Origin: Watersipora subatra
Lineage: Eukaryota > Bryozoa > Gymnolaemata > Cheilostomatida > Watersiporidae
NCBI RefSeq assembly: GCF_963576615.1
Contig: NC_088711.1
Coordinates: forward strand, 18,260,182 to 18,324,181
Direction of reading: 5' to 3'
DNA: 64,000 bases
Shown: positions 17,351-51,600 of the stretch, piece by piece
Layout: each line of letters starts with the position of its first letter
Position numbering within the stretch: the stretch's first letter is position 1
Made by a program: the position numbers and the translations under genes
The notes under the pieces: generated by a model
Database searches by the model: none
Seen by the model: only the letters and a program-made list of their open reading frames with translations
What the model was told of the DNA's origin: nothing

Positions 17351-18037
17351 TTGTTAGGAAATAAATGAAATGCCAACTAGTAGACAGATATTCACTTATA
17401 TGTATAAAGTTTTTTGCATTGGTGGTCGGATCTACTGATAATTGCATCTGCATGGTCGGTGGGAGAACATTTGATTTCTGGATTTACAGCACCCGAGCCC
17501 ATATGAATCTGATATCAAGACTAAGATGTTTCAAAGCTGACCAGGCTTTCGTAAATTTGTCAATTTAATTGTAATATACTGAAGTTTTATTTTAATATAG
17601 CTTGACTTTGCTTTGAAGGGGATGACTACTTAGGAATTTTTGCTGATGTAAAAACTACATTTTAATAAGATGAGATAGCTACATGTATGTTGACAAGACT
17701 CAATAAATTTGCGATATTTGTGTTTATTTTCGCCAGAGATTATCTAGCTATGCGCTAGCGCAATGTGATTTCTATGTGACCCATTGTAAATTTGGAACTG
17801 TTGTGCATGACTGACGTAACATTACGACTTGCAACCGTTTAAATAGCCTGGATTGTTTCAAACTCCTTTGTTCTTCAATTTGCAGACTGAAGTCGTGTTC
17901 CCGGCTATGATTCCAAGCTTATAACCCCTGACAAACAAGAATTGACTGATTTATTCAGATATATTATTACAGCCTGATCGTATTAACCTGTTTTCACAAG
18001 TAGTGCCAAACCTACTGTTGACGCAATGAACTATCAT
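17351..18037. other. Intergenic stretch, nothing recognised
   Basis: No gene, repeat family or RNA gene recognised between the LINE fragment and the minisatellite. Confidence 0.5.
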
Positions 18038-18704
18038 CTTTAGAGATAACCTCTTCCACTCTTTAGAGATAACCTCCTCCACTCTTTAGAGATAACCTCC
18101 TCCACTCTTTAGAGATAACCTCCTCCACTCTTTAGAGATAACCTCCTCCACTCTTTAGAGATAACCTCCTCCACTCTTTAGAGATAACCTCCTCCACTCT
18201 TTAGAGATAACCTCCTCCACTCTTTAGAGATAACCTCCTCCACTCTTTAGAGATAACCTCTTCCACTCTTTAGAGATAACCTCCTCCACTCTTTAGAGAT
18301 AACCTCCTCCACTCTTTAGAGATAACCTCCTCCACTCTTTAGAGATAACCTCTTCCACTCTTTAGAGATAACCTCCTCCACTCTTTAGAGATAACCTCCT
18401 CCACTCTTTAGAGATAACCTCCTCCACTCTTTAGAGATAACCTCTTCCACTCTTTAGAGATAACCTCCTCCACTCTTTAGAGATAACCTCCTCCACTCTT
18501 TAGAGATAACCTCCTCCACTCTTTAGAGATAACCTCTTCCACTCTTTAGAGATAACCTCCTCCACTCTTTAGAGATAACCTCTTCCACTCTTTAGAGATA
18601 ACCTCCTCCACTCTTTAGAGATAACCTCCTCCACTCTTTAGAGATAACCTCCTCCACTCTTTAGAGATAACCTCCTCCACTCTTTAGAGATAACCTCCTC
18701 CACT
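18038..18704. repeat. 23-bp minisatellite, 29 units
   Basis: 29 head-to-tail units of exactly 23 bp, each containing CTTTAGAGATAACC followed by CTCCTCCACT or CTCTTCCACT. Every unit differs only at that one C/T position, so the array can be read as a two-letter code. No length variants were seen, which implies a young or homogenised array. Confidence 0.98.
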
Positions 18705-19360
18705 CTTTGCATAGACATAATGGCTAACAAAAATCTTGCATATCATATGATTGTGAATTTTTCCGGAAGTATTAGTTTTAAATGTTTTTACAACTTGCTT
18801 TTATACGTCCATGCACCAGTACAATATAGAGCTGACAGTGTGTTTTACATAAATAATCAACAATTATAAAAAAGCTATCTAGCAAACGTTTTTTGCGAAG
18901 TAAGTTTTGCATCAACAGTGAACATGGGAACTTTAGGAATACTTTATTGGATTTGTTTTAAATCTTGTCTTATTTTAGTCTTGTCCTAAATTAATGAATA
19001 ATTCAAGCTAGTTTGCTCGAAAATCATGACTGCATGAGAGATCATGATGTAATTTTTTCCTAACGCTGGCTTTAGAGGGACACTGATTTTATTAGAAGCT
19101 TAAGTTATTCAAATTTATTGCGTAAAAAAACTTGGCCATTTAAAAATAAATTTATTGTCTTAAATTATTGAATAATTTAAGGACTTGTAACACAGTCAAA
19201 GTGATGCAACTGCAACAGTGTATGACCAACTTTCATATGGTGTATAAGATGCTACTTGCAGATCAGCATTTTTAATAAAATAATATACATTTAAGAAAAA
19301 AATCTTTACAATTATAACAAACTGTTTAACTGGTAAAATAACCTCATAGCTTGAAGAACA
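18705..19360. other. Intergenic; 3' flank of the CENP-V-like gene
   Basis: Contains the 3' side of the minus-strand gene and, at about 19010-19180, a dispersed repeat (TCATGACTGCATGAGAGATCATGATG, then GCTGGCTTTAGAGGGA) whose second copy at 20020-20088 plus 21438-21530 is split by a hAT element. Confidence 0.5.
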
Positions 19361-24700: not shown

Positions 24701-27700
24701 AGCAGTGAATGGAGAGTGAAGACCAGTGCAGTAAGAGAAAATGGATATAATGCGAAATGGTAAAAAAAGGGAGTGACCTGTCTGATTATATGGGAATGTT
24801 ATGTTAGAAAGTAGCGATCACTGTAATGACTATATATTGGGCAACATCAAAAAATGTAGTGGCTTCAACGTGTTGTTCAGGGTAAATGGTCAAGCGAATT
24901 GGTTTAGAATAAACTCAAGGGCTGACATTACCCTTGTCCATGCATCCACAATGAGGCGACTTGGTCTGAAACTTAATACACAGGACCAACAACGCCTGAC
25001 AGACACAGGAGTGGTAGAGCAATCGAGAATAGTGATGGTAAAAATGAGAGTGGGAGAGAAAACAGTTGAAGCTAAGTTTCGAGTGATCGTGGAGGCATCA
25101 CAAAACTTGCTGAGCAAGCCAGAAATCTATGAGCTGAGACTATTGAGGCGACAGATAAGTAAGGTCACGATAGATGAACCAGAAAAGATGGAAGAGTTGT
25201 TCAGGGGTGTAGACCGTTGCCAGACAAACTCTAAGTCAATTTGTGGGAGGGAGTAACAGCTGTTTGCACTGGCCGTGCTACGTCAACTACCCTTTGAGCT
25301 CAAAGAGGCCTCACGAAGAGAGCTGGAACAGATCGAAAGTTTGGGAGTAATTGAAAAAGTTGAGGGGCAGCCGACTGGTGTGAGTATAGTAGTAGCCTCA
25401 AAGAGAAATGATGAGGTGAGGATATGAATAGGCATAACATTTCTGAACCAAAATATTTGGAGAGAGAATTTTTTTCGCAACCAATGGAAAAGGAAATGTG
25501 GGCGAAGGTTGCAGGAGCAAAATGGTTCAGCAAAATGGACACCAACTCCGGCTTTTGGCAAATTGAGTTGGGTGAAAGATCTTGTCGTCTGACTACATTC
25601 ACCACACCACTTGCCCTATTTCAATTTTGCAAAATGCTTATTAGAACCTCTGTGGCGCCGAAATTCTTTTAAAGGCAGATCACAAATATGGCTCATGATC
25701 ACAGAAACCATGGTTAAGTCGCAAATCACGAAGTTTAGTTATACGACTTTGAAGCTGTACTATCTGAATTTATAATGTTAGTAACGATTTTTGCAACACA
25801 TGCATCTGGGCCAATCAAAGAGTGATCTTTCTGAATCTGAAAACACTTTAGCCAATAAAAGACTCTAACCATTGGAAAAAACCTTAAAGCTGTTGCTAAG
25901 CTGAAGAGGAAGTACTGAAAAATGGCGTCCAATAAAAGTAATCGATTCTTTTTTGCTGATTTTAAAGATAACTCTGACGTTTTGGACACTTTTAATGAGT
26001 ACTTTGGTATTCCAACTGATGTCAAAAGCAGTGAAAATAAAGGGAATGACGATGATATTTTCCTAACGATTTTTATAAAATTATTATAATATTTAATTAT
26101 AAGAATAGTTATTCGATTTTACAAGATTGGAGGATATAGTGTCTGATGGTGTGCAATATGTCTCTGTTATTATTTTTCTAAAGATTTTGTTGGTGATACT
26201 ACCGTTGTGCCAAAATCGGGTTACTGCCAAGCCGCTTTAATATCTGCAAAATTAAGAGTAAGTAATACATTTTCTAATAGATAGACTGCTATCTCTATGT
26301 CAGCTAGCAAAAATCTGTTTAGATTTTTAAATTCAGCATAATTATTTGGATACAAATACAGAAATCTAGATAAATATCACAACTTCTTGATATTAGTTGC
26401 TATGGCGTTTTGAAATGGAAACAAAATTGTGCATTGGTTTTCGGTTCTCAAACTTTACCACCAGTTTTTTCAGAACTGCGTTCTCGCACTAATGGTGAAC
26501 GTGCATTCAGTTTATTGATGATAAAATCTGTTGTAATTAAGCTAGAACCAAACTTTTTTGGCAAAATAACTGAGAATTTTTTCCTTCTGCTAGTGTAGAT
26601 AACCCCAAATCTAACACACCCGACTTAACCATGGTTTCTGTGATTATGACCCAAATATTGGAAGAACTAAAGGTATGCATGTATGATTGACAACATACTA
26701 GTATGTGGATGAACAGCATCAGAGCATGATGTGAGAAAAAAGGCAGTGTTAAAAAGGATTAAGGAGCGGGGATGACGTCAAATCGAAAAGTGAGTTTCGT
26801 AAAACAAACTTAGATTTCTAGGTCACATAGTTGGAGAAAACAGAGTAAAGACAGACAGTGGAACAGTGCAAGCAATCAGGGAAATGAGACCACTGACCAC
26901 CAAAAAATAACTAAAAAGCTGTTTGGGAATGGTCAATTACTTGCACAAGCTCAATCCAAATTTGGCTGAATTGAAGAGGTAGGTAAGGGAGTTGTCGAAG
27001 GAGAAGAATGATGGGATGTGGACTGTGAAGCACACCCAAAAAGTCAAGCCGGAAGTATGTTCGGCATTGGTACCAGCCAAGTATGACATAAGAGCGTGGC
27101 ATGGGGTCACAGTCAACCAAGCAGATACGCGATAGGGACAGCGCTATTGCGAAAGATGCGAAAGGGCCTATGGCACTTGCATTGCAGGGACTCACAAACA
27201 CAGAGATATGCTCAAATCGAAAAAGAACCCTGGCCATGTGAGCGGTTTGGTTTTTATCTCGTTGGCACAGTGTTTGAAGTTGCGATAAATCACAACCCAC
27301 TGATAAACTTGCCGACTTGGTAGACATCTTAAAGCTGGTTCACCCTATATCGCCATATCTCTGCAGTAATACCGCAATACTTCGGTGATCGTCGATGATA
27401 ATAATGTTCACACTATCACAAACCCATCCACGTTTGCATCTGCAAATACTCCATGACGTCGTGTTTTCATTTTTGCTTTCAAATTCTTGCAAAAAAACTT
27501 TGTTTTCGGGTGTTTGAAACCAATACTAGTCGCACAGCAACTATCATAAACGGAAATAAATAAATCACGCTATCCGCGACCACGAATTACTATTGCCGAA
27601 ATGGTTCATATTGCAAAGGCGGTCATTGATGCTCGGCAAAATATCAGTTTGAGAGCTGCAAATTTCCCCGAGGTATCCGCATTGCCTCATTGATGCCATC

Positions 27701-39691: not shown

Positions 39692-42600
39692 TTACACACT
39701 GGGAGAGCCCTTCGGGTCAAATGACTTGTCAAGGTCCTTTCCGATAATAAGACCAAAGAAGGCGACAAGCAGAGCGAAGTTGAGAAGCAGGAATGCTCGT
39801 GTCCAACCGTAATGAGAGGCAAGAAAGCTCATGGGAAATCCGGCTGTCACCGCAGCAACTACCAACAAATAATTCAAAAACCATGTTTTTACGAGTGTCT
39901 CAACATGCAGATAGTCTTACTATAGTTATACATTATACAGTTATACATGTAGTTATACATTATACAGTTATACATGTAGTTATACAGAGAAAATGAACTT
40001 TTGCAAGCCATTGTAAAACCCTCCTATGAATGTTGAACTCAAACTGCTAACTGAACTTGCAATATTTTCAAAGTTATCAACAATTTATCAAGTTTGTATA
40101 CAAGCTCTTGGCATTCAGCTTACATGAAATATTTTTATTTGCTCGCGGTACAAAGTGCTACAAATCTAAATATTGACTACAGATCTAGATGTTAATGACA
40201 AATCTAGATGTTGACTACAGATCTAGGCGTTAACCAAAATCTAGATATTGACTGCAGATCTAAGATGTTGACTGCAGATTTAATATGTTGACTACAGATC
40301 TCGATGGTGCCTACAAATCTAGATGTTAACGACAAATCTAGATGTTGACTGCAAATTCAGATGTTGACTACAGATCTAGATGTTAACGACAAATCTAGAT
40401 GTTGACTACAGATCTAGGCGTTAACCAAAATCTAGATATTGACTGCAGATCTAAGATGTTGACTGCAGATTTAATATGTTGACTACAGATCTCGATGGTG
40501 CCTACAAATCTAGATGTTAACGACAAATCTAGATGTTGACTGCAAATTCAGATGTTGACTACAGATCTAGATGTTAACGACAAATCTAGATGTTAACGAC
40601 AAATCTAGGTGTTGACTACAAATCTAGATGTTGACTACATATTTAGCTGTTGACTACAAATTTAGATGGTTACTACAAATCTAGATGTTGACTACAAATC
40701 TAGATGTTTACTACAAATCTAGTTGTTGACTACAAATCTATATCTTGCCTACAGATCTAGATGTTAACGACAAATCTAGATGTTGATTGCAGATTTAATA
40801 TGTTGACTGAAAGTCTAATATGTTCATTGCATAATGGTGTTTGACAGCTTGCTTACGATTGTTAGAGAAGCCAAGTAGTGCATAACAGGAATTGAGTTTA
40901 TTAGGAGGGGCAGTCTCGATAAGCATGGCTTCAAGGTTCTGTAAAGCTGCGCAGAAGGTCAAACCCATAACAAAGGCATAGAGATTTACTTCCATCTAAA
41001 GTGAAAGATTTCAGCTAAACTCACTACAGCTCCGCAAACACAACGCTAAAGAGAGCAATCACAGGATGTTATAGATCATACATCTTTGAGTGATCACCAA
41101 ATTTCATCCTGCATACTTAGGATTGCCAAAAACTAGTTTGCAAACTTTTGCATTAAGTAATTTATAGTTTATTATTAATCTTTTATTCATTGTGTATTCA
41201 TGAAACCTATAATTTACGTTTTTTTATGATACTTTAGTTATCATGTTATAGCTATCATGCAGGCTATACAATACGTGTGTCATATACATGTATCATATAC
41301 ATGTATCATACATACGATACATGTATATGATATGTGTATCATAACTATAATATGTATCGTGTTATATTTTTAGTTAGTTAAAATCAAAAATATTTTTTTC
41401 TTGGGTGGAACGTGTGAAAACAAGTCACGGATTTTAAAGAAGAAAATTGATTCAAACATATCACTATAAGTTAGTCTTATCTCTATTTCTAATGCTACTA
41501 CCCCTTGAATTCAAATAGCAATTTTTGTTCCTAAGGTAACTAATTGTGACCTGCAATTTAAATAAGAACATTTAGCATAAGACAGCACTTGTGGTGTGTC
41601 AATGTCGTAATTTTATTTTACAATAGTATCTAGTAATATAATGCTATATATTCACTCTACTTTGATAGGAAATAGCAGTCTACTAAATGGAAACTTTCAA
41701 GCCATCTAGATGATTAGAAATCACATCTTGCTTTAAGGGTGACTAAATATCACTGCTGTCGGGCTGTAATAGCCAACAAGGCCTAAAATATTCAGGTACG
41801 GAAAGGCTGGTATACCTACAGCCCCGGAGTAGGCTGTAATTCCAAGGATGAAAGAACTAAGGACTATTCCTCCTCCAAACAAAGATAAGAAGAGAAGAAT
41901 CATTCTTGGGAACTTGTAGTATCCGATGTGCATGTCCTGCAAAATGGTGCGCATACAGTCAATGGTAACAGGTGGTAACAGGTGCCAATTGTTGTTAGTG
42001 GAGTCAGCCTAAATAATCGCAACATACGGAAATGACAAATTCTACAGGTTCACCTAGCAATTGCTAGACATTTTTCTTTTCGCTGTATTCTAATTACAAA
42101 ATCATAATTCAAGATGGTGTCACATATAGCTTTAAAACATAGGGTGTGGGTTCGAGTCCCAAAATTTGCCTTTTCGGGGCGGTTCTGCTTCAGCATACTA
42201 CACCATATTCTTGTTATGAATGTCTGCTGAGGCATCCGTTTTGCAAAAATTGGCAATCAGCCTAACAGTTGCACAGTCAAATAGACCACAATGAAATGAA
42301 AAAATTAAAAATAAAATGATAGACACACAACAGTAAAACATTATTTATCTATATATGTATATTTCTCCAAGTTGGTCTGTTTACATGTTTGACCATCTTT
42401 AGCTATTAATTCATATCTTGGAACAAAAAACCCGCATCCACGGAGATTTAATCTCAGACCCTCCGGTTCACCAGTCCGATGCCTTACCAATTCAGCCACA
42501 CGAGCTTGATGGATTCATTAGGCGATATATGGCGTTGTATGGGAGCAAATACACTACAGCTATCTGTCACGGCGCAAAGTGATAGTGTAACGTCATAAGA

Positions 42601-45600
42601 AGCGGTAGCTCTTATTAGTAAGCTTATTCAAATTCTTCATTGGCAATGCGTCAGGCTAATAGCAAGTGGCAGACAACTCTCATTATCTTTCATTGTTTAT
42701 AAGCTGATTTTTAGAATCCAGGCAACATCGGGTAGCACAGCTAGTCTGTATATAACCCTAAGTGTTTGTTTATTGGTCTGTTGTATGTCCAATTAAAGAG
42801 AGTAAATACACTAAAAGGGAAAAACCGTTTCACACTGGAATTGAACTCAGAAACATTGGTTCTTTAAACAGGAATGCTAACCATTACCCACACGGCTACC
42901 TTGGCATGCAATGGAATAAGTGTGAACATACTTATTATACATGCCAATAATTAATGGCGCACAGGACTGCCTGAGTACTAGAAAAAATACATGCTGAGAC
43001 TCCCCAAACTGCTATAAATATACCGTATGCATATGTAACATAAACATAATTAAACTTATAGCCCACACAGAAATAAGCAAACACCTTCATTTAAAAGTCA
43101 GAATGGTAAATGTTGTTTGTTGGTTAAAAATAAAATTTCTTTGCAAAAACTTTTTATTACCCGTGCAACACTGGCATTTATCTAGTTATACATAAAATAC
43201 CTTTTTGATAGCAAAATCAGCCATGGCCCCAATTACGGTTGTGCCAAATATAGCTCCACACTCGAGGGCTGTGCCAAAACCACCGGCATTATATGTGGAG
43301 AGGCCTCGCTCTTCCATGAGATAAAGTTGACCCCAGTCAGCACTGCTGACTCGTATGAGTGTCATCAGAAAGCCACCGCCACAGAGGACCAGCATAAACT
43401 CTGATCCTATGATATCCGTCCAATGAGCATCACTGTTACCTACATGTATACAATGATTCGTCCAATGAGCATCACTGTTACCTACATGTACACATTGATC
43501 CGTCCAATGAGCATCACTGTTACCTACATGTATACATTGTAAATTGATTTGATTTCTGCATAATGCCCTTGAAAGAACCTAGTGACATTACAGCTGGATG
43601 GCTTCTTGTAAACATAACCATACAAATATATAAGTGATGCATATATATATACGAGGTGAATGCCCGACGTGGCCCGTGAAAGTTATCATTCTAACTTTCA
43701 AACTTCATATCATGGAAAAGTGTTTTTGTGCAGTTCAAATGAATTAAGAAAAAAAATAAACAATGAGTTATTGGAAGTGTGTGTATAAAAAATGTTACTG
43801 TTGCAGCAGAAGCTCGTATTCAAAGTTTTGATGGACGATACGGGTATAAACGTTAAAATGAAATACCGCACTGTTTTAGTCTGGTACTTCGTCTGATTGA
43901 ACAAAGAGATAATGTAGAGGCAATTCCTACTTGAGATAATACAATAATTATTACCCATGTCAAAAGTATTTAGCCTTTACAGATTTAGCGATCGAACCTT
44001 AGGATAAACCAGAAATAGGAATAAGGGGTTTGGGTATCTCATGTAACTGAACATTTGAAATTGAAACGTTACATTTAAAAATCACAAATTGAAAAAAAAA
44101 AAGTAATGGCGAAAGAATTTAACTTTTAAAAGCTTTCAAAAAATAATAAATGCAAAAGGTAATACAATGGACCCATACAATTTTAAGAATGGCGAAAATA
44201 TTGTATAGTGTAGTATTGAAACCCATAGGAATTATTGAATACAAACACTCCCTGGTAAAGATCATCAGAATTTTATATACGTGATGTACATATTAAAAAT
44301 TATTCAAAAAATAATATGCTAAAATTAGTACCTATGGTTACCTACAGTAACTTTAGTGTAGTTAGTGGTTATGGTCTGCAATAAAATGTAACATTACAAT
44401 GTACTATGTGCAGTACGTACCATAGAGAGTTCTTACCTTTGAGACAGACGTATAACATGAATACTGAAGTTAATTTAAATGAATTTAGCTTACTTAACAC
44501 ATAATTAAAGCTAATTTTTATTATTTATTTCACTAAAATGTATTTTGACAGAAGTTTATATATAGGCTATAATATAAATACATATATAGATATCTAATAA
44601 TAGATAAGTGGCCAGGCCTACTGCTAACAGCACTCTAAGCTCTAAAAAGTGCAGTGTTATAACTAACTAGAGTGTTGGAATAGGTTAATGTTACTTATCT
44701 TTCTTCCGGATTGGTGTTTTTCTCTGGGGTCATGACAGGTCTGTTTTGCGCTTCTGCACTCGTAAGATGACTTACGTTAAAATCTGATTCTGATAGCCAT
44801 TTTAACGCAAGTCACCTGACGAGTGCAGACGCACGAAACAGACCTGTCATGACCACAAAGAAAAACACCAATCCAAAAAAAAGATAAGTAACATTAACCT
44901 GTTCCAACACTCTAGTTAGTTATATACCTATATACATGTATATGTTTTGTTTTATAGTTATGTTTATATGTTTTATACACTATATACAACATATAGAACT
45001 GTTTACATAGATTTGAAAACAATAATTTATATACAGCATTTAAGTTTAATACAATGTAATACATCTGGTGGCATGAAAGTTCTAATCTGGTACCTTGAGT
45101 GAATTTCTGGTTCTGATAGCCAACATCTGATGGTTTATCAATGTTTAGGAAGTAGAGAGCACTCGCTACTACCATAGATATGACTGCAGGCATCTGTATA
45201 GCTACTCGCCATCCGTGTTCGTTAGCCCAATTGTTAGCAGCCGCAGGACCAATAAGATTAGTTAAAAAATATGATAAACTCATCAGGGCCCACCACAAGC
45301 CAAATGAAATGGTTGGAAACCTAAAACAAGTGAATACATCTGGTAGACTACTGCCGTTTCCTCAAGCTTGCTTTGAAAAGCTACGCAAGGTCATGCGTGT
45401 AACTAGACCTAGGGAGTAGATGATGACCAATCAAAACACGGAACTAATTTTTATGCATTACGATTGGTGAGAACTATTTTTTTATTGTTTTTATAATACT
45501 CTAATGATTGTAACAAAAAATTGTGTCCAAGCGATTGAGCTCCGTTTAAAATTTTTAACATTTTCCACTTTTTTAATGTTTAAGCTTTAGTTCTATTTTA

Positions 45601-48600
45601 TTTATGTTTGAGGCAAATAAACTCCTACTTGTTTGCCTCAAATATTTTGGTTTTTTAGGTTTTAATGCTGTTCTTTAGGAGGAACTAGCAGTAAACTGGG
45701 CAAAACTCGGCATTTCTTTTATTTTTAATCAGATACCCTCAAGTTGGTGCTGAAGAGGCTGATTCTCAGGCACCAAATAGAGTTTTAAAACCAAACATTT
45801 TTTACAACCTGGCGGAAGGCAGCGAGCGTATGCGATGATAGTTTGGATGAAATAGGACAAAAGATATGAAACCGCATAGTGTTGTCACGGACTAACAGAC
45901 ATACACAATAATAAAGTGAGATTTGTTAATAAAGATTTCTATCAAAGAGCTTCTTTAATGCCATCATTCATAATCTGCCATAATAATATTGCATTTTTAA
46001 ATTTTCACAAACTTTGTGGTACCATTGACAAAAGATGAGGAAGCCTACTGCGTGTTGCAAGAAACCAGCAGTTATTAATTACTCAAATACATTAGATTGT
46101 TCTATATTTTAATACTCATATTACCAAACACTACCAATACTTATGTTATAAATCACTGACCATGGTACTGCCAGTTACTTAATATTGCAGTGTTACAATG
46201 ATTTGAAAGCCTGCTATTCATGAATACTACAGACCCATTAGTGTGGATACTTGCAAGAACGACTATGCGCTACTTGGTGCAAAAGCTCACCATGCCCGAG
46301 TCACTTTGACCACACACGGCCAACCAAAGCCATTGCAAATTCCATTTAAAGAAGCCATCAGCATCAAGTTTCCAGAATCATCAGCATCTAATGTATAAAA
46401 ATAAAGATAAGACAACTCCATGTCATTAGAGTTGGTGCTTTTACTGTGCTGAGTCAATATGTAGTTTAGCTTGCTTTAACTTGTTCATGTACAGAAAGTC
46501 CTCAGCTCACAACAATCTCGACTTATGTTGTTCCGAGGTTACAAACGCACCACATAAAAATATTTAATGCAATATTGAATGTAGTTCTGCCTTAGTGTCT
46601 CTTACGACATAAGCAACGCAAACAATTGTCAACCCGCATCCGTCATGCAGAAAATATATATATGCTTTGTTGTGCTTGTAGTAGAGGAAGATGGCATCGA
46701 TGGGTCATTCAACTTCAGCGCCATTTTGGTGGTGCCTTGCAGTTCTCGCTCTGTCGCCTGTTTGAGATTTTTTTGTATTTTTGACCACAATGATACCAAA
46801 GTGCAAGACAGATTCTTCTAATGGCAATGCAGCAAAAAAAGAAAAGTCATCATCATGGAGGGGAAACTAAATATTAAAAAGAGCATAAAGCAATTTATTC
46901 AAAATGTTTTGACTTACACTGAAATTCAAGTTAAACCATGGATCAACATAGTAAGCTGAGGACCCCCTGCTCACCCCCAATCGTAGGGAGGACCCCCTGC
47001 TCACCCCCAATCGTAGAGAGGACTAGTGTATGTACTAATTGTTAGGCTCGTTACGCATTTTTCTTACTGAATTCCTCAATTTTGTTAAGTAATAATTTAT
47101 AGTAAAACTTTTCTAGTAACATTATAGTTAAGTTGGTGAAGTCAGCATTAGAAGCTGTCTCTCAATTTTGCCGAGTCACTCCCTGAACAATAAGGAAAGC
47201 ATAGTACAGATAGAATGTATTACATGCAGAAAAGTACCATTTTAGCTGGTAGAGTTTAGGTCTTTACAAAGCCGGTAATCATGAATAATTTTATTGTGCA
47301 TTCAATCTACCTAGTCATGACAATAGTGAACAAGTACTCACCAGAAAATCCAAAGTTGAAAAATCCAGATAGAAACATGCCGAGGGCGAAAAGAGTTTTT
47401 GCACTTGAAGCGTCTAGTGATGTACCAACGAAGAAAGATGAGATGGTGAATGACACTTGTTGTAACATCACTATCGAAGCTGCAAAAACCACATTCTCTC
47501 ATATACTATGTCATGGCAATGCATGCTGATAAATGTGAGAAGTTTTCTCCACGCTGAGATAATAACTCCACAATGAATGCAATGATTCAACTATAGTTGG
47601 TTTCAAAAATTACGGAAACCCATGTTTGTACCCAGGGTTGGAGCAACGGCGGAATTTGCAATTACGATGAATTAATAATTAATTGGTAGTTTGAAATGGC
47701 ATTAATAATTAAAATAATTAATTTTAAGTTTGTGAACTTGCATTAATCATTGAGTCAATTAATTATTTTCTGTTTAAACTCAATTATGCATTAAATTACC
47801 AAATTACCTTTAAGACTAAATGCATTACCAATTAAATTGACAAATTCTATATTCAAAATAAATTATTCAATAAATTAAAAAATTAGTTTTAAACATAACA
47901 GCATTAATAATTAAGTTAATGAAGTAAATAGTGATTCAATTGAATTATGCATTAAATCACCAAATTAGTTTGTCAAATAAGCACATTCATTTTTAAATTA
48001 GTGAAGTGATTAGTCTTGAAAAATGAATTACTCACTAAGTTATCAAACGAGCAGATCAAAAACTTCATTAATTGTGTTTTTTTAATTGATGTATTTAAGA
48101 ATTTTGCATTTACTTAAATTGCTAATCAATAATTTAATGAGCAATTTAATACAATTGTTAATGTGCATTATTAATTGACCACAACCCTGTTTGTATCCAC
48201 CCAAATACAGTGAACCTTTTGGTCATCGTTAAAAGGTCAAAGTTTACTTTGTCTAACCCAAGTTAGACACTAACTTCAGTACGACAACTTAGTCGTCTAT
48301 GACAAGGAATAGAATAATCTGTCGCTAATTACTTGTTACAACTCAAAGAACTACCTAGTCTTGCCTTGCTGATACTTTAGAATTGATAAATATAACTCAC
48401 TTATCTCTTGTCCTGAAAAGACTCCTTCATTCATGATGTGTGGGAGTATGAATTGAAAGACTCGCCTGTTGTATATGTAGAGGCAATGACCGAGAAAACA
48501 ACTCGCAAACACAAACATCTGGTAAGTCGAATAAGCGACATCTCCCACTAAAATACATATTGTATGACAATTTAAATTAGTAAAATATATATTGTATATG

Positions 48601-51600
48601 ACAATTTTAATTGGTAAAATATATATTGTATAGGACAATTTTAATTAGTAAAATATATATTGTATGTGACAATTTTAATTAGTAAAACATAATTTGTATG
48701 GTTCAAAAGCCTATTGCTTTTTTGCCAGATTTATATATTTTCTATTTTGCCTCATGCTGCCCCAAACTTGTATCTCTTTGTATCAAAGGCTGATAAAGAA
48801 AAATCAGAAGGATTTCAAAAAGTATGCTTTAGGGTTATGCCACCTGATATGAAGAGTTACGATCAGTGTCTAAATGTCCTTAATGCTGAGAAGCTAAATG
48901 TGTTCTTAGATATTTGCTGCCTGATATTTGTAAATCTCCCAGACCACCCATTACACTTCTACTTTCCCAAAAAATCTACTACACTGTATACCAATATATA
49001 TAATATTCTTTCAATACACATAATTTTACATTTTTATCTTTTATTTTTGTGTTCTACTTTGTGCTGAAAGGTATAGACTGATGTAAATAAAGTTTGTGTT
49101 TATATTAATAATTACTATGAAATAAATTTAATTATTAAAACATATACCGTATGTAAAGATTTTAATGATGCTGCAGTTAACATTTTGAAACATTTTGTAA
49201 CACGAATTCAGCTGTTATGTAGTAGCATACGCTAGTCGATGACATTACTTGACCATAATGCCAGAAAACATGTCAGGCAGCAGCCTGTCAAAAAACTGGG
49301 ATTCCTCCTTGACAGCGGACGGCTGTCAGACAGGCATCGAGCTGCAAAAGTAACGCTAAGTTATCGCTCCACAGTTATTCAGGTAGCTAGCCTGAGCATG
49401 CTTCTGTATTTGTACGTCACAGGCAGTATCTTGATCTGCTATGACACCAGAGTTTTATCACGTTTTAAAAATGTAATTTCACTAGGTGAATGCCCGGCGT
49501 TACGCGGATAATAAAAATATTTTGCATAAAAAGTTTAATTTTAATTTGCTACATTTCTTTATGCAATAAATTTGAGTAACTTCAGCTAGTCTAAACTTTT
49601 ACTATAATAAAAGCCATTATTATAACTTGATGGACTTGCCTAAACTTTGAGTAAAATTCATCAGAATGTATTGCTATTTTTTGTATCAATTGCAATTGTT
49701 TTTAATGTATGAGGTGATCTGATTAGGAGGATGTTTCAAGATTAAAATCAATAAAACTTGATCGCAACTAAAATGCTCCAACCAAGCAAAAGTGTGATTA
49801 TGACATCTTTAATTGCAGAGAGATCGACAGAATAAAGAGTCATAACATTTTATTTAGCACAAACCATAAAACTTCCATTTGATCGCCATGGTACTCTATT
49901 TTCAACCCTTTTCCGATAGTGGTAATAAAATAAAAGTGACGTTTAAATTAGAGGGTGTTGTTGTATTTTTCATACCGCTCCTCAGAATTTTGGGGCGATA
50001 CATTTAACCCTTTTAAGGGCGAAATGAATGTCGACTATATTTTGCACTCTCCTTTGAGCAGAGCGACATTGAACCATTTTACTGCAATATATCTGCTAAC
50101 TTACTTCCAACTTGTAAAATATCTCTATATAAATATGATTTGGAAAGCCAAGAAATATCTTTACCACCTGATATCTATTGCTTGCAATTAACCTGTGATG
50201 ATATTATAGCATGCGCCCAGCTTTGCAATTTGTTTAAGCTTTTAATATTTTTATTTCATTCTAAATTTGAAGACATATTTTATTTTATAACTATATTTAA
50301 GAATGTTGCATAAAAGCTCATTGCACTCATCGATATGTTTAGTACAGTTTGCAGCCAAAACTAGCTTATTATGTGCAATAGAGGAAGAGTTATGAATGTC
50401 GATCCTTTCAATTCCTTTGTAAGATCAGAGTACCACAATGATGCTATAAAATAATATGCTATAAATCTGCAAAATTATAAGTTTTATGATGATAATCTAT
50501 CAAATTCTACAACTATATATTCATGAGCAAGTGACTTAAACAAACCATATTTATATTACACGCAGAAACAGAAATTAATGTTTTAAAAACAAAGATATTT
50601 TCATTGTTTTCTTGAATAGCTGCATTCTGATTGTTGCTTTTCGATCGAACGAATATCTTCTAGTTGTCCAATATCTTCCACAATATCTTCTGGTCTCAAC
50701 TATTTTTCTGCATTGCTGAATTAGTCGATATCGGCGTCCAAACAATTTTTTGAGCAGAGCAAATCATTTACGCACTGTGTTTTGCCCAATGATAAACTTG
50801 TAGCAGCTAAGGTGCTAAGCACTAGTTCTAGTCTAAAACTAGTCATTCATATACCATCATAAATATAAACAATTTTTCACATACGTCGAAGTATCGAATT
50901 GAACAAAGAACTATTATTACTTTAAAACAATTATTACTTACTTCTATGGTGTTGCTGTCAAAGATTAAACGTAAAACACGAAAGGCTTTAGAGTTGGAAA
51001 ATAGACTATGATACAAACAGAAACAACGAAAGAATTAATTGTTATTGCTGTAATCGAGTCATTATTAGTACGATCTTGTAGACGCTTTTCTACTGACCAC
51101 TTGATATTATAGGTTAGTAAAAATCGAAAAATGTCAAAATGACGATCAAATGGAGGTTGGCATTCAATTAAAAAGTGGAACTCCATTTTTCACCCTTTTT
51201 CCCATAGTGACGGTAAAATAGAAGTGGCGGTCCATGGAAAGGTGGCGCTCAATTAGAGGTTTTACGGTAATAGCCGATATTGCAGCGATAACAACTAGGG
51301 ACGTCATTTTGCACATATCTTTTGTCTGTGTGTTTTAATCGCAATCAAGTTAGTCATCGCAATGGAAGTTAGGAATGTTTAGTCCGATTTAGAATGATAG
51401 AGAAAGGTGTCTTAAAACCCATTATTATCTAAATTCAGCCTTCAAAATAATCTCAGTCTTTTCTGAAAAGTAGATAAGCTATTTAACATTGCATATTCAA
51501 AAATGAGCTCAAAAAAGCACAATAACAACTCTAGCTTAAAATAAAATCATGCTTTTTTGAGCTCATTTTTCTAGGCGTTCAGCTGACTAAATATCATGTA

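Follow-up and report, generated by a model that had tools for sequence, protein, structure and literature searches.

The window, by which we mean the whole stretch of 64,000 nucleotides that was analysed, carries on its minus strand a gene for which eight exons can be recognised between 48547 and 39692, delimited by eight AG acceptors and seven GT donors (here and below, a slash marks an actual or candidate splice point):

48401-48547, minus strand: exon 1 as recognised (TM1); the start codon lies further upstream or is an inner Met
47342-47479, minus strand: exon 2 of the gene model
46291-46387, minus strand: exon 3 of the gene model
45094-45320, minus strand: exon 4, ending in phase 1 (CAA G) at the weak donor AAG/GTACCA
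43201-43439, minus strand: exon 5 in its shortest form, with acceptor 43439; 239 nt, encoding the loop before TM7 and onward
41820-41936, minus strand: exon 6 of the gene model
40857-40995, minus strand: exon 7 of the gene model
39692-39858, minus strand: exon 8 of the gene model, including the stop codon

Splicing these exons in silico through the innermost of three candidate acceptors of exon 5 yields 422 residues without a stop, the phases after exons 1 to 7 being 1, 1, 2, 1, 0, 0 and 1. Compared with the sequences of solved structures, this product matches SLC37A4, the glucose-6-phosphate transporter, with an E-value of 3.7e-53 over residues 4-403, versus only 1e-4 for SLC37A2; five SLC37A4 sequences match it, with E-values from 1e-51 to 3.7e-53, and Pfam reports the domain MFS_1 at 4.3e-32. 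The original prediction had called the gene SLC37A4-like, and the matches to SLC37A4 and MFS_1 bear this out. The solved SLC37A4 chains are, we presume, human, and we infer from the gene and its introns that the source of the window is an animal. A short upstream exon with the start codon is likely, since the first recognised residues include no start codon and the alignment begins at residue 5 of the solved SLC37A4. The exon that concerns us is the fifth of the recognised coding exons, and would be the sixth if that unseen upstream exon exists: the number 6 that it had first been given holds in the second case only.

In this gene model, the predicted fifth exon opens with a tandem array. Positions 43414-43539 consist of three head-to-tail copies of a 42-bp segment (TRF score 231, with a second repeat finder in agreement):

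43498-43539, minus strand: outer unit U3, transcribed before the other two; TAG closes its 16 intron bases, and 26 nt beginning with GTAACA follow
43456-43497, minus strand: middle unit U2, with 2/42 differences from U3
43414-43455, minus strand: inner unit U1, with 1/42 differences from U3, continuing directly into the conserved exon body
43522-43525, minus strand: AG/GT of U3, acceptor and candidate donor in one
43480-43483 and 43438-43441, minus strand: AG/GT of U2 and of U1, as in U3

On the minus strand, the unit reads CAATGTATACATGTAG/GTAACAGTGATGCTCATTGGACGGAT, with small changes between copies, and each one joins 16 intron bases ending in TAG to 26 exon bases. Exon starts of the form AG/GTAACAGTG thus occur three times, at 43439, 43481 and 43523, exactly where they had been predicted. 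The triplication itself also stands, but the interval proposed for it, 43417-43542, is off by 3 bp according to both repeat finders, and the 22-23 exon bases attributed to each unit fall short of the actual count of 26. Each of the head-to-tail copies contains a splice site, as placed by the gene model.

The copies are 93-98% identical: over 42 positions, the outer and middle units differ at two, the outer and inner at one, and the middle and inner at three, two of the substitutions being private to U2 and one to U1. In 20 shuffles of the window that preserve dinucleotides, TRF found at most two rows per shuffle and a best score of 69, against 231 for the real array, which is therefore not chance sequence. 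Near-identical repeats are a known cause of assembly error, and the array could in principle be such an artefact, or the product of collapsed alleles. However, its copies bear private substitutions, and at 126 bp it is short enough for a single read to span; we regard an artefact as extremely improbable.

Tandem repeats are dense in the window: TRF reports 39 rows, some of them overlapping, which cover 5.6% of the bases. When the arrays are rotated past the 15 splice sites of the gene, at least one site is met in 52% of the placements, so the coincidence of an array with an acceptor needs no selection. We also considered whether arrays are concentrated at the acceptors of this gene. Two of its eight acceptors have an array within 5 nt, and at least two of eight have one in 7.7% of the rotations; when the seven donors are included, at least two of the 15 splice sites lie within 5 nt of an array in 26% of the rotations. 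Such a concentration is unconvincing.

Several other repeats can be described in and around the gene. A 34-bp array of 4.5 copies at 48549-48699 ends 2 nt before the exon 1 acceptor; a CTAAT/CCAAT motif and a TATTTT stretch recur in its units, which do not include the AG. Intron 7 consists mostly, at 40158-40794, of a 19-bp repeat with a higher-order period of 191 bp that begins about 63 nt after exon 7. Intron 4 contains, at 44658-44924, a MITE-like foldback element whose two 126-nt arms are 90% complementary and stand 15 nt apart. Diverged copies of the end of one interspersed repeat, resembling GAATGCCCGGCGTT, can be seen by eye at 43640-43680, 43150-43187 and 49481-49518, and two of the three flank exon 5 in opposite orientation; the repeat finder, at its settings, does not report them. 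Elsewhere in the window, a 23-bp array extends over 29 copies at 18037-18708, with 98% matches.

The rest of the window was surveyed through 10 open frames, hand-picked among the 53 that reach 85 residues or more: Pfam finds retroelement domains in four, three of which are below the curated cut-off, and no domain in the other six. Retroelement remains lie at 509-2619 and 24786-25669, the best piece being a reverse transcriptase (E-value 4.2e-26), together with weak matches to a gag-type protease and reverse transcriptase below the curated cut-offs. ARAGORN found no tRNA in the window. Rfam gives a borderline tRNA match on the minus strand at 42433-42505 (29.6 bits, for a gathering threshold of 29), possibly the head of a SINE, and a tRNA-like stretch is visible by eye around 42830-42910.

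We now turn to the reading frame. The phase at the end of exon 4 is 1, and exon 5 measures 239, 281 or 323 nt with acceptor 43439, 43481 or 43523, all equal to 2 modulo 3. The three acceptors are in phase, and give 0, 14 or 28 additional residues, the last two through the following extensions:

43440-43481, minus strand: 14-residue extension with acceptor 43481, translated without a stop
43482-43523, minus strand: second 14-residue extension with acceptor 43523, translated without a stop

The array is open in one of the three minus-strand frames, and this frame is the required one; both the conserved phase and the 0, 14 or 28 extra residues before a membrane segment, as originally predicted, are recovered by translation. 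Between 43300 and 43760 there are 24 AGs, eight of which are in phase and stop-free, namely the three AGs of the array and five downstream within the exon, and none of the nine AGs upstream of the array in that range is both in phase and stop-free. The locus thus offers several stop-free AGs in the same frame, as alternative tandem acceptors do. Frame preservation is only mildly improbable, and is not strong evidence of function: among 20,000 random 42-mers of a composition set close to that of the window, 36% are open in the required frame, and about one third of unit lengths are multiples of three.

The five downstream AGs, 43406 (ATAG/GATCAG) and four others, being in phase and stop-free, raise the possibility that the true acceptor is one of them and that the entire array is intronic. 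In that case the array would be open by coincidence, which at some 36% for one random unit is weak evidence against it. A downstream acceptor would also lose the residues DII: a translation across the array has SLC37A4 as its best match among the sequences of solved structures, with an E-value of 4.9e-06, and this local alignment starts at DIIGSEF, whose D is encoded by the codon that closes the inner unit. We consider a downstream acceptor very improbable.

By the usual helix numbering, we take the insertion point to be the loop before TM7. It would correspond to the variable central loop that separates the two six-helix halves of the transporter. Alignment gaps make the solved SLC37A4 longer by seven residues in this loop than the shortest form found here and, because of these extra residues, the SLC37 family appears to tolerate changes of length at this place.

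While the array and the gene model are firm, the choice of acceptor is a prediction made from the sequence. Candidate branch points were sought by their motifs:

43540, minus strand: A of a branch-point-like TTTAC that precedes the exon start of U3 by 17 nt, with no intervening AG; motif match only
43508, minus strand: A of a branch-point-like CTCAT that lies within U3 and precedes the exon start of U2 by 27 nt, with no intervening AG; motif match only
43466, minus strand: A of the equivalent CTCAT for U1, which precedes the exon start of U1 by 27 nt, with no intervening AG; motif match only

The same search on the other acceptors of the gene found nothing at exons 4 and 7, so that not every intron here needs such a motif. 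Donors and acceptors were scored with approximate matrices, whose scores are rough. With the acceptor matrix, the inner, middle and outer acceptors obtain -1.35, -2.50 and -3.37 respectively, and 84 of the 472 AGs of the gene score as well as the inner one. On the same matrix, the scores of six other acceptors, that of exon 8 excluded, run between -6.59 and 4.33, five of the six being higher than that of the outer acceptor of the array. The polypyrimidine tracts of the three are not strong, with 6-7 pyrimidines out of 12.

Two indications are thus at odds: the order of the AGs after the branch-point-like site would favour the outer acceptor, and the acceptor score would favour the inner one. 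Use of the outer AG may be expected because it is the AG met first downstream of the original intron's branch-point-like TTTAC; its score, the lowest of the three, would argue against its being used by default. The explanation that we prefer, to which we give about an even chance, runs as follows. The general churn of tandem repeats in this genome would, fairly recently, have turned a 42-bp stretch spanning the exon 5 acceptor into three tandem copies. The array would persist since its unit, 14 codons long and free of stops, lengthens the protein in the variable central loop and nowhere else. The spliceosome would use mainly the outer AG, at 43523, leading to a protein longer by 28 residues, and the two inner AGs, both preceded by a CTCAT at 27 nt, would compete with it to some degree.

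Another reading is that the inner acceptor, 43439, is used alone, the outer two copies being the inert end of an intron that measures 1,654 nt up to this acceptor. Its score is the best of the three on the approximate matrix, and single-copy exon sequence lies directly downstream. However, two AGs in a near-identical context come earlier after the branch-point-like site of the intron, and no sequence feature was seen that would exclude them; use of the inner acceptor alone seems to us unlikely.

The original prediction overlooked that every copy of the array is a candidate donor as well: AGGT is present in all three units, each time as AG/GTAACA. On the approximate donor matrix, the donor of exon 4, AAG/GTACCA, is weak, with a score of -0.17 that 63 of the 544 GTs of the gene equal or exceed. 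The same matrix gives TAG/GTAACA, read as a donor in place, a score of 1.52 (30 of the 544 GTs are as good), and AAG/GTAACA, the site formed by joining the array to exon 4, a score of 2.98 (12 of 544).

The extra copies could then be spliced out through these candidate donors. Either the junction of exon 4 with the outer AG would regenerate the donor AAG/GTAACA, to be spliced in turn to an inner AG, or a nascent GT-AG mini-intron of 84 nt, from U3 to U1, would be removed. Excision of the 84 nt bounded by the outer GT and the inner AG leaves an mRNA identical to the one obtained by direct use of the inner acceptor, and the copies would be silent. In support of such recursive or mini-intron splicing, the regenerated donor and the donor in place surpass four and three, respectively, of the seven native donors on the approximate matrix, that of exon 4 included, and a CTCAT precedes the U2 and U1 exon starts by 27 nt. 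Against it, the donor matrix is an approximate one, GTAACA has no G at position +5, and an intron of 42 nt, the length of one unit, is shorter than is usual in animals. Introns arising from tandem duplication are documented for 24-nt repeats in fission yeast (PMC3629103) and for an intron-exon boundary in potato (PMC4974935); on the other hand, the ratchet points of Drosophila occur within long introns and require an RS-exon (PMC8605326), and intron 4 here measures 1,654 nt up to the inner acceptor. We hold this kind of splicing to be possible but improbable.

These comparisons deserve to be made explicit. By title and abstract opening, the on-point paper among the matches listed for duplicated acceptors is PMC2812944, on human duplicated genes whose exon-intron boundaries carry internal tandem repeats; it reports 27 intron modifications, 66% of which have, in addition, a transcript retaining the repeat. 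As in our array, tandem repeats at a boundary are able to alter splicing, but the human cases are supported by RNA and lie in segmental duplications, whereas ours is read from DNA, lies in an SLC37A4 gene and has three complete acceptors. In the RdRp gene of potato (PMC4974935), the duplicated segment likewise runs from the last part of an intron into the beginning of the exon that follows; there, however, the copy includes the branch site and the polypyrimidine tract, and the new intron is supported by RNA-seq, while only 16 intron bases are copied here and the intron is hypothetical. The fission yeast genes SPOG_01682 and SOCG_00815 (PMC3629103) share with our array several short units, 24 nt in their case, that carry a proto-splice site, but their repeats are exonic and have spliced ESTs, one of them at odds with the annotated intron. 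The proto-splice site is given as AGGC in that paper, and as AGGT in the summary of PMC4974935.

Since the exon part of each unit begins at AG/GT, the array has the layout of an intron birth or of a recursive site. It matches the layout proposed in PMC3443670 for the birth of introns by tandem duplication, with an AG/GT in each unit. The recursive splice sites, or ratchet points, of Drosophila also have an acceptor followed directly by a donor, AG/GT, but PMC8605326 places them in long introns with mostly strong regenerated donors, in contrast with the middling candidate donor that opens a predicted coding exon here. Variants of length exist in the same gene family: vG6PT is an isoform of human SLC37A4 with 22 additional residues from the 66-bp cassette exon 7, reported to be similarly active (PMC5913288); it differs from our case in that a cassette exon is involved, rather than repeated acceptors of one exon. 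Repeats that alter exon boundaries are thus already documented, and the array looks like another case of a known repeat type, genuine but ordinary.

A bolder conjecture, which we judge doubtful, is that we are looking at a splicing ratchet at its birth. The three AG/GTAACA sites, acceptors and donors at once and accompanied by branch-point-like motifs, would yield 28, 14 or 0 additional residues, whether one site is chosen directly or pieces of 42 or 84 nt are taken out step by step, and changes in the number of units in the population would tune the length of a transporter loop.

Three 3' splice sites that are nearly identical, follow one another at intervals of 42 nt and share a reading frame, in a gene that has relatives of solved structure, constitute a compact natural test of acceptor choice. 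If a single site is used, the array is a neutral repeat; mixed use or stepwise removal, if seen in RNA, would offer a direct view of an intron, or of an isoform, arising from a minisatellite.
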